Shown: positions 3,513-30,829 of the stretch, in pieces
Layout of the letters: each line of letters opens with the position of its first letter
Position numbering within the stretch: the first letter of the stretch is position 1
NCBI GenBank assembly: GCA_016794525.1
Contig: JAEUJY010000062.1
Coordinates: forward strand, 62,001 to 126,000
DNA: 64,000 bases
Origin: Myxococcales bacterium
GTDB taxonomy: Bacteria > Myxococcota_A > Polyangia > Haliangiales > Haliangiaceae
Direction of reading: 5' to 3'
Translations under genes and position numbers: made by a program
Notes under the pieces: generated by a model
What the model was told of the DNA's origin: nothing
What the model saw: only the letters and a program-made list of their open reading frames with translations
The model's database searches: none

Positions 3513-4742
3513 TCACCAGCTCGAGCCCGCGCCGCCGCCGTCCGAGCTGCCGCCGCTGAAGCCGGAGTCCGAGCTCGACGACGACGACGACGACGCGTCG
3601 GACGACGACGAGGACGACCACCCGGAGTCGCTCGACGACGGCGACCACGACGAGTCGCTCGACGAGCTCGAGCTCCATCGGACCAGCTGCGGCGTGTCGC
3701 GGAAGTAGATGTTCTGGAACGCGCAGTGCGCGCAGCGCTCCCACACCCGCAGCTGCCCGCCGTGATCGTACGTCGCCTCGATCGTCACGCTGGTGGCCGA
3801 CGCGTAGGTCCGGGCGGTGCAGCTCGGGCACGGCTGGTACCGCGAGAACCAGCGCCGCGCCGCCGCCATCCGCACGAAGCGGCAGCCCATGCACTGCCGC
3901 ACGACGTAGTTGACCGAGCCGACGCGCTCCTCGGCGCGCTGGCCCTCGGTCAGGAACGCGTCGTCGGCGCGCTCGTCGAGCGTGATCACGTGCGCGCCGC
4001 ACTTCGGGCAGCGCCGCCGCCGCCGCGTCGCCCAGACGACCGCGCCGATGCTCGCCGCGCTGCCCACCGCGAGGCCGATCGGCACCGCGACGCCGCCGCC
4101 CGCGTCGTGATCGGCGGGCGCTGGCGGCGTGGCGCGCGGCGCAGGATCGGGGATGGGGTCGGGGATGGGCGGGGGCGCCGGCCGCGCGGGCGGGGGCGCC
4201 GGTCGTCGCTCGGTCGTCGCCGCCGCGCCGTCGCTGCGGTACTCGCCGGGCGTCGCCGGCACGTCGGCCTCGCCGGGCAGCGCCCGCAGCCGCCCGTCGA
4301 TCGCGACGAGCCCGGCGATCAGGCCGCCGCCGATGTCCTTGCGCTTGAACGCCGGCACCATCTGCGCGGCCTGCATCTCGGCGAGCCACGCCGCGGGCAG
4401 CGCCGCCTCGATGCCGCGGCCGGTCTCGATCTCGAGGCGCCGCTTGCCCATGACCATCAGCACCAGCACGCCGTCGTCGTGGCCGGCGCGGCCGATGTGC
4501 CAGGCGTTGAACAGCTCGGTCGCGAACTGCTTGGGCGTCCCCGGGACGTCGTCGACCGTCACCACCGCCACCTCGGCCCCGCGATCGCGGTGCAGCGCTT
4601 CGGCCAGCGCGTCGAGCCGCGCCTCGGCGGCGGCGTCGAGCACGTCGGCCTGATCGGTGACCCAGCCGCCCGGCCGCGGGCTCGGCACCTCCGCGACCGA
4701 CTGCACCGCGACCACCCACAGGCAGGCGAGCGGCGCCAGCAT
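3513..4742 (-). CDS. TPM-domain membrane protein with zinc ribbons and Ser/Asp-rich tail (copy A)
   Basis: A 409-aa paralogue of the gene just upstream. In order: a short signal peptide (1-20), a TPM/YgcG-like domain (about 25-150, with WVTDQADVLD, VAVVTVDD and HDDGVLVLMVMGKRR), a Pro-rich linker, one membrane span ending in an Arg cluster, a cytosolic part with four CxxC-type knuckles (CPKC, CMGC, CPSC, CAHC), and a tail of about 60 residues made mostly of Ser and Asp. It ends in Gly-rich GGGAGSSW, a terminal pattern common in TPM-domain proteins. Its ATG overlaps the upstream stop by one base (TGATG), so translation is coupled. TPM proteins are linked to membrane-complex assembly and phosphatase activity; the role here is unknown. 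Confidence 0.8.
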   Translation of the reverse strand: MLAPLACLWVVAVQSVAEVPSPRPGGWVTDQADVLDAAAEARLDALAEALHRDRGAEVAVVTVDDVPGTPKQFATELFNAWHIGRAGHDDGVLVLMVMGKRRLEIETGRGIEAALPAAWLAEMQAAQMVPAFKRKDIGGGLIAGLVAIDGRLRALPGEADVPATPGEYRSDGAAATTERRPAPPPARPAPPPIPDPIPDPAPRATPPAPADHDAGGGVAVPIGLAVGSAASIGAVVWATRRRRRCPKCGAHVITLDERADDAFLTEGQRAEERVGSVNYVVRQCMGCRFVRMAAARRWFSRYQPCPSCTARTYASATSVTIEATYDHGGQLRVWERCAHCAFQNIYFRDTPQLVRWSSSSSSDSSWSPSSSDSGWSSSSSSDASSSSSSSSDSGFSGGSSDGGGAGSSW

Positions 4743-5914
4743 CACCAGCTGGACCCCGCGCCGCCGCCGCGCGACCGCCCGCCGCCGAAGCCCGACGACG
4801 ACCGCGAGCTCGACGACGACGACCGCGAGCTCGACGAGCCGTACGACCGCGAGCCCGAGCTGGTGCTGGTCGACGACGGCCGGGTCCGCCGCGGCGTCGA
4901 GCGGGTCGACACCGAGCGGTGGTTGCAGTGCGGGCACTGCACGGTGATCTCGACCGAGCCGCCGTGATCGTAGGTGGCGGTGACCAGCGTGCGCGAGGTC
5001 GACTTCGCGGTCTTGAACCGGCACCCCGGGCAGCGCTGGCGGCCCGAGAACCAGCGGTTGTGGACGATCGTCTTCGACGCCTGGCAGCCGGGGCAGATCA
5101 GCACCTCGTAGTCGACCGCGCCCAGGCGCTCCTCCGCCTGCTGGCCGGCCGACAGGTGCGCGTCGTCGGCCAGCTCGTCGAGCGCCAGCATCTGCACCTG
5201 GCACGCGGCGCAGCGCCGCCGCCGTCGCCGCAACGCGACCACGCCGGCCCCGCCGGCCCCCAGCGCGGCGAGCGCGCCGAGGCCGTACCCGAGGGCACCG
5301 CCGCCGCCATCGTCGTCGCCGCCGCCGCCACCGCCGCCGCCGCCCGTGGCCGGCACCGCGGGCCGGCTCGTCGTCCCGCCCGGCGTCACGACGGTGCCGT
5401 CGCTGCGGTACTCGCCCGGCGTCGACGGCACGTCGGCCTCGACGGGCAGCCCGCGCAGCCGGGCGTCGATCGCGACCAGCCCGGCGATCAGCCCGCCGCC
5501 GATGTCCCGGCGCTTGAACGCCGGCACCATCTGCGCCGCCTGCATGTCGGCCAGCCAGGCCGCCGGCAGCGGGATGTCGACGCCGACGCCGGTCTCGATC
5601 TCCAGGCGGCGCTTGCCCATGACCATCAGCACCAGCACGCCGTCGTCGGCGCCGGCGCGGCCGATGTGCCAGGTGTTGAACAGCTCGGTCGCGAACTGCT
5701 TCGGATCCCCGGGCGAGTCGTCGATGGTGACCACCGCCACCTCGGGGCCGAGCTCGCGGTGCAGCGCCTCGGCCACCTCGTTGAGCCGGGCCTCGGTCGC
5801 GGCGTCGAGCACGTCGGCCTGGTCGGTGACCCAACCGGTGGGCCGCGGGCTCGGCACCTCCGCGACCGACTGCACCCCCACCACCCAGAGGCACGCGAGC
5901 GGCGCCGTGAGCAT
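4742..5914 (-). CDS. TPM-domain membrane protein with zinc ribbons and Ser-rich tail (copy B)
   Basis: First gene of the tandem pair, 390 aa. It shares nearly every segment with copy A: signal peptide, TPM domain (WVTDQADVLD, QFATELFNTWHIGRAG), a Gly-rich linker with a run of nine Gly, one transmembrane helix followed by an Arg block, four CxxC pairs (CAAC, CPGC, CPGC, CPHC), and a Ser/Arg-rich tail ending GGGAGSSW. In copy B the tail is Ser/Arg/Thr-rich, where copy A has Ser/Asp, so the tails carry opposite charge. The copies are a local duplication that diverged mainly in the linker and tail. The start is the ATG at 5914; the next gene upstream is divergent, so a promoter should lie within 5915-6001. 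Confidence 0.8.
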   Translation of the reverse strand: MLTAPLACLWVVGVQSVAEVPSPRPTGWVTDQADVLDAATEARLNEVAEALHRELGPEVAVVTIDDSPGDPKQFATELFNTWHIGRAGADDGVLVLMVMGKRRLEIETGVGVDIPLPAAWLADMQAAQMVPAFKRRDIGGGLIAGLVAIDARLRGLPVEADVPSTPGEYRSDGTVVTPGGTTSRPAVPATGGGGGGGGGDDDGGGGALGYGLGALAALGAGGAGVVALRRRRRRCAACQVQMLALDELADDAHLSAGQQAEERLGAVDYEVLICPGCQASKTIVHNRWFSGRQRCPGCRFKTAKSTSRTLVTATYDHGGSVEITVQCPHCNHRSVSTRSTPRRTRPSSTSTSSGSRSYGSSSSRSSSSSSRSSSGFGGGRSRGGGAGSSW

Positions 5915-26395: not shown

Positions 26396-27328
<933 letters not shown>

Positions 27329-27334
27329 TACAGA

Positions 27335-27357
27335 GAGGGTTTTTCGCAAAAACCCTC
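27335..27357 (+). terminator. Strong hairpin, likely terminator of the FHA-DUF4388 gene
   Basis: GAGGGTTTTT (27335-27344) and AAAAACCCTC (27348-27357) form a perfect 10-bp stem with a 3-base loop, starting 6 bases after the TAA at 27328. The T-rich upper stem is unlike the surrounding GC-rich DNA. No T tract follows on the plus strand, so termination efficiency is uncertain. Confidence 0.6.
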
Positions 27358-27371
27358 CCCCACAAGACGTG

Positions 27372-27554
27372 GGGCCCCCACCCGAAACGCGAGAGCGTGC
27401 AGCGGAGTGCGGGGGAGACCTCAAACCGGGCCCCCACCCGAAACGCGAGAGCGTGCAGCGGAGTGCGGGGGAGACCTCGGGCGGGCCCCCACCCGAAACG
27501 CGAGAGCGTGCAGCGGAGTGCGGGGGAGACCTCCGACGAACGCGAGAGCGTGCG
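27372..27554. repeat. Three tandem 51-bp direct repeats plus a partial fourth
   Basis: Units at 27372-27422, 27428-27478 and 27483-27533 begin GGGCCCCCACCCGAAACGCG and end GGGGGAGACCTC, with 5 and 4 bases between them. A partial unit (about 27538-27554) follows. Within each unit ACGCGAGAGCGT is a 4-bp stem with a GAGA tetraloop, and CCCCC and GGGGG near the ends can close a larger stem. Spacing of 56 and 55 is not a multiple of three, so the stretch does not encode protein. Confidence 0.8.
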
Positions 27555-27555
27555 G

Positions 27556-27933
27556 TCAGCGCGAGAGGGCGATGGCGGGGGTGAGTGGTGGGGTGGGGCG
27601 GGTGGCGCGCTCGAGGAGCAGCGCGCAGACGACGGTCGGGACGATGACGGCGGGGGCGAGCGCGGCGAGGCGGAAGGCCTCGGCGCACAGCTGCACGAAC
27701 AGCGTGGGCGGGACGACGAGGACGGCGACGCGGACGGCGACGGGGCCGCGCAGCCGATCGGCGATCGCGCCGAGCGCCCAGCCGATGATGCCGGCGGGGA
27801 GCAGCATGAACCACATCAGCATCACCGCGAGCCACAGCTGCGATCCGCGCGACCACACGCCGATCGCCAGCGCGACCGCGACGGTGTTGATCAGTCCGTA
27901 CGCGACGCCGCGGTTCGCGCCGATGCTCACCAT
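27556..27933 (-). CDS. Small integral membrane protein, unknown
   Basis: A 125-aa protein with about four hydrophobic helices (residues about 8-25, 32-55, 65-85 and 88-110) separated by short charged loops. No catalytic or transport motif is visible and I do not recognise a family. The stop codon lies just beyond the last partial 51-bp repeat. Spacing to the next gene upstream (start of the hydrolase pair) is short but they are in the same minus-strand run. It could be a small membrane partner of the neighbouring proteins, which is only a guess. Confidence 0.55.
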   Translation of the reverse strand: MVSIGANRGVAYGLINTVAVALAIGVWSRGSQLWLAVMLMWFMLLPAGIIGWALGAIADRLRGPVAVRVAVLVVPPTLFVQLCAEAFRLAALAPAVIVPTVVCALLLERATRPTPPLTPAIALSR

Positions 27934-27972: not shown

Positions 27973-28820
<848 letters not shown>

Positions 28821-28824
<4 letters not shown>

Positions 28825-29777
28825 GGCGCCACCACCTTGCCCAGGCCGTCGTCGTCGCCGAGCACCAGCTCGAGCCCCTCGTGGGCGGCGATGACGCTGA
28901 ACGCGTCGCCGTGGCTCTTCACGCTCCACCGCGCCGCCATCAGGATCGCGTCCTGCGCCTCGTCGGTGCGCATCGGCGCGTGGTGGTAGAGGCACAGCGT
29001 CTTGACCCCGGCCTCGCGCGCGATCGCGATCGCGTCCTCGGGCGTCGAGTGCCCCCAGTGCGGGCGCAGCTTGTACTCGTCGATCGTGAACTGGGTGTCG
29101 TAGATCAGCAGGTCGGCGCCCTTGCACAGCGCCACCAGCGACGCGCGCATCGCCGCCAGCTTGTCGGCGATCGGCTTGGGCAGCGGCTCGCCGGTCGGCG
29201 GCTTCGAGATGAACTCGTGCTCGAGCAGGATGTCGCTGAACGGCGCGGTGTCGGAGCAGTACACGACCGACGCGCCGTCGCAGTCGAGCCGGTACGCCAT
29301 CGCGATCCACGGGTGGTTCAGCCGGGTGCAGGTGACCAGCGTCTTGTCGATCGCGAAGCGGTTGCCCTCGACCAGCTCGTGGAACTCGATCGACGCCTCG
29401 AGCGCCGACAGCGGCACCGGGAAGTACGGGTCCTCGGTCTGCGACGCGAACACCGCCTGCAGGTGGGTGTCGCCGCGCTGCCGCGCGAAGACGTGCAGCT
29501 TGTTGCCGGCCCGGTACAGCGGCGAGAAGAACGGCATCCCCTGGATGTGATCCCAGTGGGTGTGGCTGATCAGGATGTGCGCGGTGCCGCTGCCATCCCC
29601 GAACCGCTCGTCCATGAGCGCCTTGCCCAGGCGGCGGATGCCGGTGCCGGCGTCGATGATGATCGGCCAGGCGCCGCGCGGGCGCACCTCGACACACGAC
29701 GTGTTCCCGCCGTAGCGATTGGTGCTGGGTCCCGGGACGGGGATGGAGCCGCGAACGCCCCAGAATCGGACTTTCAT
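28821..29777 (-). CDS. Metallo-beta-lactamase-fold hydrolase, copy 2
   Basis: A 318-aa paralogue of the next gene. Motifs are MKVRFWGVRGSIPVPG, RYGGNTSCVEV, HTHWDH, LNHPW, CSDTAP and LYHHAP, so all metal ligands are present. It is about 35 residues longer than copy 1, mainly by insertions in the region that usually gives substrate specificity (FARQRGDTHLQAVFA and FISKPPTGEPLPKP). Two tandem, coupled hydrolases of the same family with different insertions suggest related but different substrates. It is upstream in the operon; the two are in a minus-strand run with a lipoprotein gene 95 bases upstream. Confidence 0.85.
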
Positions 29778-29872
29778 GGCCGCGCCGATGACGCGAGGCG
29801 AAGATACCACGCGACCGCGGTCGGGCGCGAATTTCCCGGACGGGCTCGCGGCGCTGGCGCGCGCGGTAGCGC

Positions 29873-30829
29873 CTAGGGGGTGACGGCCAGGCCGATCGCG
29901 CTGCGCCGCCCGTTGACGGCGGCGAACGCCATCACGCCGTGGTTGCCCTGCAGCAGCACCGCCGGGTCGCTGGCCGGCGCCGCGGTGACCGGCCGGTTCC
30001 CCGCCAGCAGGCTCCATGACGCGCCGTCCCACGACGCCGCGTAGCCGATCGCGTAGAGCGGCGCGTCGGTGCCGGCCGGCAGCTTCTTGAGCCCCGCGTA
30101 CCACAGCGCCCAGTGGCCGCGGCCGGTGCCCTCCTCGATCCAGCCCAGCGCCGGCGCGGCGACGGCGGCGTGGTCGAAGGCCTTGGGATCGTCGGCGCGC
30201 GGCACGACGATCGGCGCGGCGGCGCGTTCGAAGGTGCGGCCGTCGGTCGAGCGGGCCAGGCCGATGCCGCCGCTGCCATCGACGAACGCCAAGAGCCAGG
30301 TGGCGCCGTCGTAGGCCAGCCCCGGCGACGTCGCGCCGGTGAGGACCGGCGTCGGCGACTTGGTCCAGGTGCGGCCGCCGTCGGTCGAGTCGGCCCGGCC
30401 GATGCCGGTGCCGCCCGCGTAGAACATCACCAGCGCGTCGCCCTCGGCGACGATCGCCGGCGCGCCGACGTGGCCCTCCTCCCACGGCTGGTCGGCGACC
30501 AGCACCTCGACGGCGGCGTCGGGCAGCTGATCGATCGCGGCCTGCTCGAGGCGCCAGATCGTCGTGTCGCCGGCCGGCTCGGCGGCGCTCTCGCGGGTGA
30601 CGTAGGCGGTCAGCCCGCCACCGGCGCGCGGCATCAGCGCCGGCTCGCTGAACTCGAACACCGGATCGGTGCTGAGCCACGGCTCCTCGAGCGGGGTGTC
30701 GCCGTCGAAGGCCAGCTTCTTGAACGGACCAGCGCCGGTCAGCGGCAGATCGTCGCGACCGCCGGAGCTGTCGTCGGCGAGGCCGAACCCGCAGGCCGAG
30801 AGCGCGAGCGCGAGCGGAGCGAGCCGCAC
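29873..30829 (-). CDS. Lipoprotein beta-propeller, sialidase-like (Asp-box)
   Basis: A 318-aa lipoprotein starting at a GTG that overlaps the stop of the FadL-like gene (TAGTG), with GGTGGAGG a few bases before it. The lipobox is ALSAC (Cys near 14). The mature part contains repeated strands around STDGGRTWTKS and STDGRTFE, matching the Asp-box (S-x-D-x-G-x-x-W) of sialidase-fold propellers, and HVGAPAIVAEGDALVMFY, as in GH43/GH32-like propellers. No complete glycosidase catalytic set can be identified by eye, so it may be a binding rather than catalytic propeller. It is third in a three-gene coupled cluster with two outer-membrane proteins. Confidence 0.75.
   Translation of the reverse strand: MRLAPLALALSACGFGLADDSSGGRDDLPLTGAGPFKKLAFDGDTPLEEPWLSTDPVFEFSEPALMPRAGGGLTAYVTRESAAEPAGDTTIWRLEQAAIDQLPDAAVEVLVADQPWEEGHVGAPAIVAEGDALVMFYAGGTGIGRADSTDGGRTWTKSPTPVLTGATSPGLAYDGATWLLAFVDGSGGIGLARSTDGRTFERAAAPIVVPRADDPKAFDHAAVAAPALGWIEEGTGRGHWALWYAGLKKLPAGTDAPLYAIGYAASWDGASWSLLAGNRPVTAAPASDPAVLLQGNHGVMAFAAVNGRRSAIGLAVTP

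Follow-up and report, generated by a model that had tools for sequence, protein, structure and literature searches.

The three 51-bp direct repeats found at 27372–27533 of the window (the whole 64-kb stretch of DNA analyzed here) are a local triplication of a single hairpin, H3, within one copy of a dispersed module. The unit of this family consists of two abutting hairpins (H1 and H2) and a C-rich tail, and is not the 51-mer. From its sequence, the module appears to be a new, sequence-conserved version of a hairpin cluster that lacks a U-tract. The module probably serves as a hairpin-cluster terminator, as a stabilizer of transcript 3′ ends, or as both, with the repeats in the window representing its triplicated H3.

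Organization of the Window Locus

The repeats are located between a gene encoding a protein with FHA and DUF4388 domains and a convergent ORF that gave no match in a Pfam search. H1, H2, and the repeats occupy almost all of the 227-nt gap between the two stops (27328 and 27556). The features of the locus, with the evidence for each, are as follows:

26396–27328, + strand: upstream gene, FHA + DUF4388 protein of 310 aa, stop TAA at 27326–27328 (ORF; Pfam FHA, DUF4388)
27329–27334, + strand: leader of 6 nt from stop codon to H1 (sequence)
27335–27357, + strand: H1, GAGGGTTTTT-CGC-AAAAACCCTC, a 10-bp hairpin with loop CGC (folding)
27358–27374, + strand: H2, CCCCAC-AAGAC-GTGGGG, abutting H1 (folding; covariation; genome copies)
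27375–27414, + strand: tail and first H3, C-rich CCCCCACCCGAAACGCGAGA followed by a G-rich closing arm (folding; genome tail matches)
27372–27422, + strand: 51-bp unit 1, whose leading GGG is part of H2 (sequence identity)
27428–27478, + strand: 51-bp unit 2, H3 copy (sequence identity)
27483–27533, + strand: 51-bp unit 3, H3 copy (sequence identity)
27539–27553, + strand: fourth, partial copy, AACGCGAGAGCGTGC, with only the inner ACGC-GAGA-GCGT hairpin (sequence)
27556–27933, − strand: convergent downstream ORF of 125 aa, whose stop starts 3 nt past the fourth copy (ORF)

A sequence-only reading of this locus had described near-identical units spaced by 4–5 bases, each with a GAGA stem (ACGC/GCGT) and five-base C and G arms. 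Sequence and folding bear out this description: the three units are 100% identical, the spacers between them, AAACC and GGGC, measure 5 and 4 nt, and every unit contains an ACGC-GAGA-GCGT hairpin and C5/G5 outer arms. The unit can be folded as CCCCCACCCG...GGGG enclosing the inner hairpin, and this structure is designated H3. Folding of 27371–27421 gave −24.8 kcal/mol (z = −2.72), with equally stable structures in 3 of 200 shuffles, and folding of 27326–27560 gave −111.8 kcal/mol (z = −4.10), a stability reached by 0 of 200 shuffles. The strong hairpin previously noticed just before the units corresponds to H1; H2, a separate hairpin between H1 and the units, had been missed. Because unit 1 begins with a GGG that doubles as part of the 3′ arm of H2, this unit is not free-standing. 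The array was also correctly judged not to be CRISPR-like; CRISPR arrays have variable spacers of about 25–40 nt between repeats, and spacers of 5 and 4 nt are much too short.

Two other repeated sequences were observed in the window. A metallo-beta-lactamase-fold gene and a similar neighbor (27973–30680, − strand) have a common 103-nt stretch with 75% identity, and a 300-nt direct repeat with 89% identity is found at 4215–4514 and 5384–5683 (1169 nt apart).

Size and Composition of the Family

The sequence is not confined to the window: a count across the genome of origin (G000; 9.80 Mb in 177 contigs) found further copies. For the 211-bp region, scoring of 40 out of 190 candidates gave at least 43 DNA matches. 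The H2 core occurs in 68 copies (≤3 mismatches) spread over many contigs, and the tail gave 118 matches (≤2 mismatches), or 139 with a longer tail pattern; reversed control patterns for H2 and tail gave 0 matches in the same genome. The 68 H2 places, 100 of the 118 tail places, and 5 longer-tail places were joined into 105 clusters, all of which were read. The family is larger than this set because 15 of 15 checked places from a later covariance-model search fall outside the 105 clusters. Within each cluster, the listed copies share one strand (105/105). Four contigs (C44, C156, C165, and C176) end <100 nt from a copy, as expected of a repeat that breaks assemblies. The dispersed REP- or BIME-like family proposed in the sequence-only reading is therefore dispersed, with about 100 copies or more, but its unit is not the 51-mer and it is not BIME-like, since none of the 105 clusters has listed copies in both orientations and no link to Y1 (RAYT-type) genes was found.

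The clusters follow a common plan of leader, H1, variable middle, and tail CCCCCACCCGAAACGCGAGA, the last missing in 4/105. H1 is mostly GAGGG-N5-CG(C/A)-...-CCCTC. The commonest middle is CCCC-ACAAGACGT-GGGG and another form is CCCC-GGCATGCGCC-GGGG; further forms include longer hairpins whose loops are CATG or CAAG, as well as a class that is ~35–45 nt longer. One member of the longer class (L186) was folded into a three-way junction (z = −1.86), and the fold of another (L228) was no better than those of shuffles (z = −0.43). The tail sequence 3′ of GAGA exists in several versions among the clusters. No description of the module was found among the titles and abstract openings listed in literature searches, and the module was unmatched in Rfam at the gathering threshold in searches of 20 and 13 loci with fast filters. 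Further Rfam searches returned only chance-level matches besides a tRNA; a weak Rfam relative could be missed, since the fast filters also missed this tRNA (at L181).

Two or three tails, with a spacing of 36–88 nt, are present in 17/105 clusters. Within an array, the 24 nt behind the tail showed a median identity of 0.92 and a mean of 0.80 (24 comparisons, including an empty one where the contig ended); between arrays, the median was 0.42 (136 comparisons). In arrays other than that of the window, the shared tail was duplicated along with its own locus-specific sequence, and in a few cases (L132, L218) the copies in the array differ. Because units are alike within arrays and not between them, most arrays represent separate tandem duplications of the tail and adjoining sequence, and the exact 51-mer of the window is a unit of this kind.

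Position Relative to Genes

A codon model trained on the long ORFs of the window identified sense coding sequence upstream of most clusters. A coding-frame stop codon was found ≤25 nt 5′ of H1, in sense, in 86 of 102 testable clusters; the remaining 3/105 were too near a contig end and were skipped. Repeating the test at seven shifted positions yielded 0 of 100–102 each time, although the upstream shifts fall inside genes and make this an easy control. The gap from stop to H1 is 0–17 nt with a mode of 7, and 0–15 nt in 85/86. No coding stop was detected within 25 nt in 16/102 testable clusters; in several of these 16, a stop below the thresholds is visible by eye. At one site (L202; C130:27316 in G000), the stop of the upstream gene lies inside H1, and that of its orthologue in a second genome (G006; see below) lies before H1. 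At L181, the upstream gene is a tRNA-Leu(CAA) that ends 10 nt before H1 and scored 52.9 bits with the Rfam tRNA model in a sensitive search. Across 94 loci, conservation is 0.15–0.7 bits in the 14 nt 5′ of H1, part of which is the stop codon itself, and 0.01–0.07 bits beyond. Because conservation falls off at this point, the 5′ edge of the module falls at the stop codons of genes that are unrelated to one another. The upstream proteins are diverse, with 105 Pfam families among 86 proteins and each family in ≤2, and include housekeeping genes. A leader resembling GACCTTG (≤1 mismatch) is found in 27/94, against a chance of 2.3% per 18-nt window. The small-RNA gene array and protein-binding array also put forward in the sequence-only reading are not favored, because the module is tied in orientation and distance to gene 3′ ends.

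The next gene downstream is codirectional in 60/103 cases and convergent in 43/103; the background share of convergent neighbors, taken from the window and from 400 kb of congener sequence, is 36%. A codirectional next gene starts ≤60 nt past the tail in 11/60 cases. In the background, 44–55% of codirectional gaps are <40 nt, a figure measured from the stop and hence not like for like with gaps measured from the tail. In G000, one module is located between groES and groEL (L201; GroES identified by Pfam Cpn10 and GroEL by ORFs). The orthologous groES in G006 (L293) has three modules in a row behind it.

Covariation of the Hairpins

The hairpin structure of the module is under selection. In an alignment of 51 modules made from sequence only, one H1 pair is changed on both sides in 17/51 sequences and three others in 5–6. 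The RNAalifold consensus for the 51 modules did not return H2, whose 3′ arm was paired with the tail, and this pairing suggests that H2 may compete with another fold; H2 does form when the window copy is folded singly. Modules from both genomes were then considered together, and 101 of 115 could be parsed (14 were dropped). They contain 20 distinct H1 sequences, all of 9–10 pairs, and 22 distinct H2 sequences, a few with outer mismatches and with inner pairs that covary. Positions 5–7 of H2 are paired at a frequency of 0.90 with their own partner versus 0.35 with arms swapped (20 types). The 10 nt after H2 contain no T in 66/70 parsed modules and one T in 4/70.

Distribution in Other Genomes

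H2 of the window type was detected in 1 of 55 other genomes. This genome, G006, is a Kofleriaceae MAG with 7 copies and is the nearest congener by FHA protein (95% versus 89–90%). A covariance model was built from 51 of the G000 modules and at most 90 candidates were scored per genome. It gave at least 90 matches in G000, at least 83 in G006, and 0 in five other congener genomes (stricter filters, at most 90 candidates each); four weak matches were obtained in G039 (best E 5.4e-5). The modules of G006 are mostly of a subtype particular to that genome (CCCC-AGCATTCGCT-GGGG, CCCCCTCCCAAAACG), with longer tandem units. In both genomes, modules at some loci are followed by long stretches of repeated hexanucleotides, of type GGTCTC/GGACTC or GGAGCC (L306, L310, L323, L301, and L329 in G006; L154 and L133 in G000). 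Of 41 G006 sites sampled among the highest-scoring matches, 7 have an orthologous counterpart in G000, where ~0.5 would be expected given independent sites and ~8000 genes. The H2 type differs between the genomes at 5 of these 7 sites and is the same at 2, one of which is groES.

An architecture detector was applied to 400 kb from G002, G004, and G005 and found nothing, where ~2–3 detections would be expected at the density of G000. It recovers 40/40 G006 loci, but its zero is weak by itself because it recovers only 63/105 G000 clusters; the covariance model also gave 0 in the same 400 kb. Orthologues of the FHA/DUF4388 gene are present in 6/6 congeners, and none has a module within 400 nt 3′ of it. 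The downstream sequence at these orthologous sites is unrelated to that of the window locus, and no clean empty site was found.

In a wider contig scan, 37 of 40 stretches among the matches listed came from one Kofleriaceae MAG, and of the other three only L362 has H1. This typical module, at 1640 (− strand), lies on a contig of 4.7 kb in the bin of Lysobacter sp. SJ66; the contig is probably mis-binned. A tail match in G012 was rejected as chance level (2 mismatches; reversed controls gave 1 match in each of two genomes). Among 377 genomes of the phylum (13 candidates scored in each), weak matches with E values from 1.7e-5 to 1e-4 were obtained in five other genera. Most of the listed sequences keep the order H1–H2–C-rich tail, some in tandem, and in one of these genera a module-like copy lies directly behind the SRP RNA (RF00169), after a row of tRNA genes. 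A stop starting 9–11 nt before H1 was found at 5/12 weak-match loci, with coding scores that were positive and mostly low. In G215, a sense coding stop upstream of the module-like repeats was found in 0/4 listed loci. The matches in other genera may be homologues or convergent forms.

Candidate mobilizers were also considered. Matches to Y1_Tnp (IS200/RAYT-like) number 17 in G000, 0 in G006, and 1–10 in the five congeners without modules; Y1/RAYT mobilization was not supported because these counts do not track modules. A class-1 motif search at 12 of the 17 G000 Y1_Tnp loci (L249–L260) found none with H1 or H2 and one weak tail match, a search that would miss GTCGAC-type modules. At L252, a related-looking hairpin pair, of this GTCGAC type, was seen by eye near the Y1 gene, behind its convergent neighbor. 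An integron attC origin was rejected; the 5 integrase matches were weak and none was over the cut-off.

Discussion

A function at the 3′ end of the transcript is proposed because the modules are placed behind both coding and stable-RNA genes, in fixed orientation, and have covarying hairpins. The module would be transcribed together with the upstream gene, and the RNA behind the stop codon is predicted to fold into abutting H1 and H2, followed by the C-rich tail and H3. This cluster would end transcription without a U-tract and/or fix the 3′ end of the mRNA and shield it against 3′–5′ exonucleases. Rho might also make use of the C-rich tail, which is a guess. Extra copies of H3 arise by local tandem duplication and would add hairpins; at the window locus they fill the convergent intergenic space. 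The beginning of most next codirectional genes well away from the tail is consistent with a terminator. Points against are the only mild enrichment of convergent neighbors, the absence of a U-tract, the consensus fold that did not return H2, the 16/102 clusters with no coding stop detected within 25 nt, and the 0/4 result in G215. The groES-groEL copies and the 11/60 short codirectional gaps argue against a strong terminator; the groES-groEL copy and the few tight gene pairs point to partial termination or mRNA protection at some sites. A role of H1–H2 as a general terminator of the genome was not supported; there is 1 such architecture in the 64-kb window, and one form of the H1 core has 102 exact matches genome-wide.

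Among the closest known systems are hairpin-cluster terminators, which, in the sections of Gupta and Pal 2021 (PMC8355165) drawn on here, consist of ≥2 hairpins <15 nt apart near the stop codon, do not need a U-tract, and are commoner at high GC. The module resembles them in its abutting H1 and H2, the H3 that follows, and a distance of ≤15 nt from the stop in 85/86 cases. Those sections report that sequences up to 25 bases from the stop codon are not conserved; here, in contrast, ~90 or more unrelated genes carry one sequence-conserved module, with tandem expansions. Like a canonical Rho-independent terminator, the module places a GC-rich hairpin just 3′ of the gene, but H2 is not followed by a T-run on the sense strand. 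The window copy does score as terminator-like when read on the opposite strand (1 found versus 0.6 expected by shuffles). Integron attC sites are also structured, adjoin stop codons, are oriented as the gene, and form species-specific repeats. The module shares these features but lies outside cassette arrays and has diverse neighbors that include housekeeping genes.

A comparison with the REPs and BIMEs of enterobacteria and pseudomonads leads to the most serious rival explanation, in which the module is a REP-like element that slows the terminating ribosome or shields the upstream mRNA without ending transcription. As extragenic palindromic repeats in ~100 or more lineage-specific copies, the two are alike, as far as the consulted parts of the REP literature go. 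According to portions of PMC12306157 and PMC2817692, some REPs lie within 15 nt of the stop codon, and the former (citing its ref. 17) reports that E. coli REPs within this distance stall ribosomes; 85/86 of the gaps found here are in that range. The copy between groES and groEL is in keeping with this explanation, as is the stabilization of mRNA by 3′-end hairpins described in part of PMC7509114. In contrast to REPs, the module has no conserved GT(A/G)G head (H1 starts with GAGGG in the 51-module consensus), does not alternate in orientation, comprises two abutting hairpins and a tail, and showed no association with RAYT. Ribosome stalling also cannot explain the copies behind RNA genes, namely the tRNA and, in another genus, the SRP RNA, where no ribosome terminates, and in most codirectional cases there is space between the module and the gene that follows. 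The REP-like explanation is accordingly considered unlikely, albeit the best of the rivals.

Lower still is our estimate for a selfish repeat, which seems improbable; such a mobile sequence would be non-autonomous, would have no function for the host, and would be tolerated nowhere but behind genes. The lineage-restricted abundance of the module (at least 90 and at least 83 model matches in two genomes and 0 in five other congeners, with at most 90 candidates scored per genome) and the common leader GACCTTG in 27/94 would fit such an element. The compensatory changes in H1 and H2, the retention of orthologous sites despite a change of H2 type in 5/7, and the coincidence of the 5′ boundary with the stop codon do not. 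Moreover, no mobilizer was found: G006 has 0 Y1_Tnp matches but at least 83 modules, and no integron integrase scored over the cut-off. A DNA-level site, such as a protein-binding or chromosome-organizing array forming cruciforms or similar structures, is very improbable. Palindromes covary as DNA too, and the copies are spread over many contigs; however, the orientation and distance of the module are fixed relative to the 3′ end of the gene before it, a constraint that a DNA-binding array does not need. The preferred reading is a hairpin cluster acting at transcript 3′ ends.

Both the shared leaders and the way one subtype has replaced another at orthologous sites point to copying, or to gene conversion, from one 3′ end to another, and such events between modules would account for their lineage-wide similarity. 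A broader scenario is offered tentatively, as one we regard as possible and not as the likeliest outcome. In it, an ancient Myxococcota 3′-end RNA module (H1–H2–C-rich tail–H3) would have spread as a cassette to unrelated 3′ ends in one Kofleriaceae lineage and later undergone subtype replacement in place. Dispersal would respect the stop-codon boundary without a known transposase, and terminators, generally thought to arise gene by gene, would here be shared, copied parts. If this is true, the mechanism by which the module disperses would be new. To our knowledge, the ways in which transcripts end in bacteria without U-tract terminators are poorly mapped. The ~100 similar modules offer natural replicates for testing the action of hairpin clusters that lack a U-tract, and with the family comes the question of how a part of this kind gets copied between genes.
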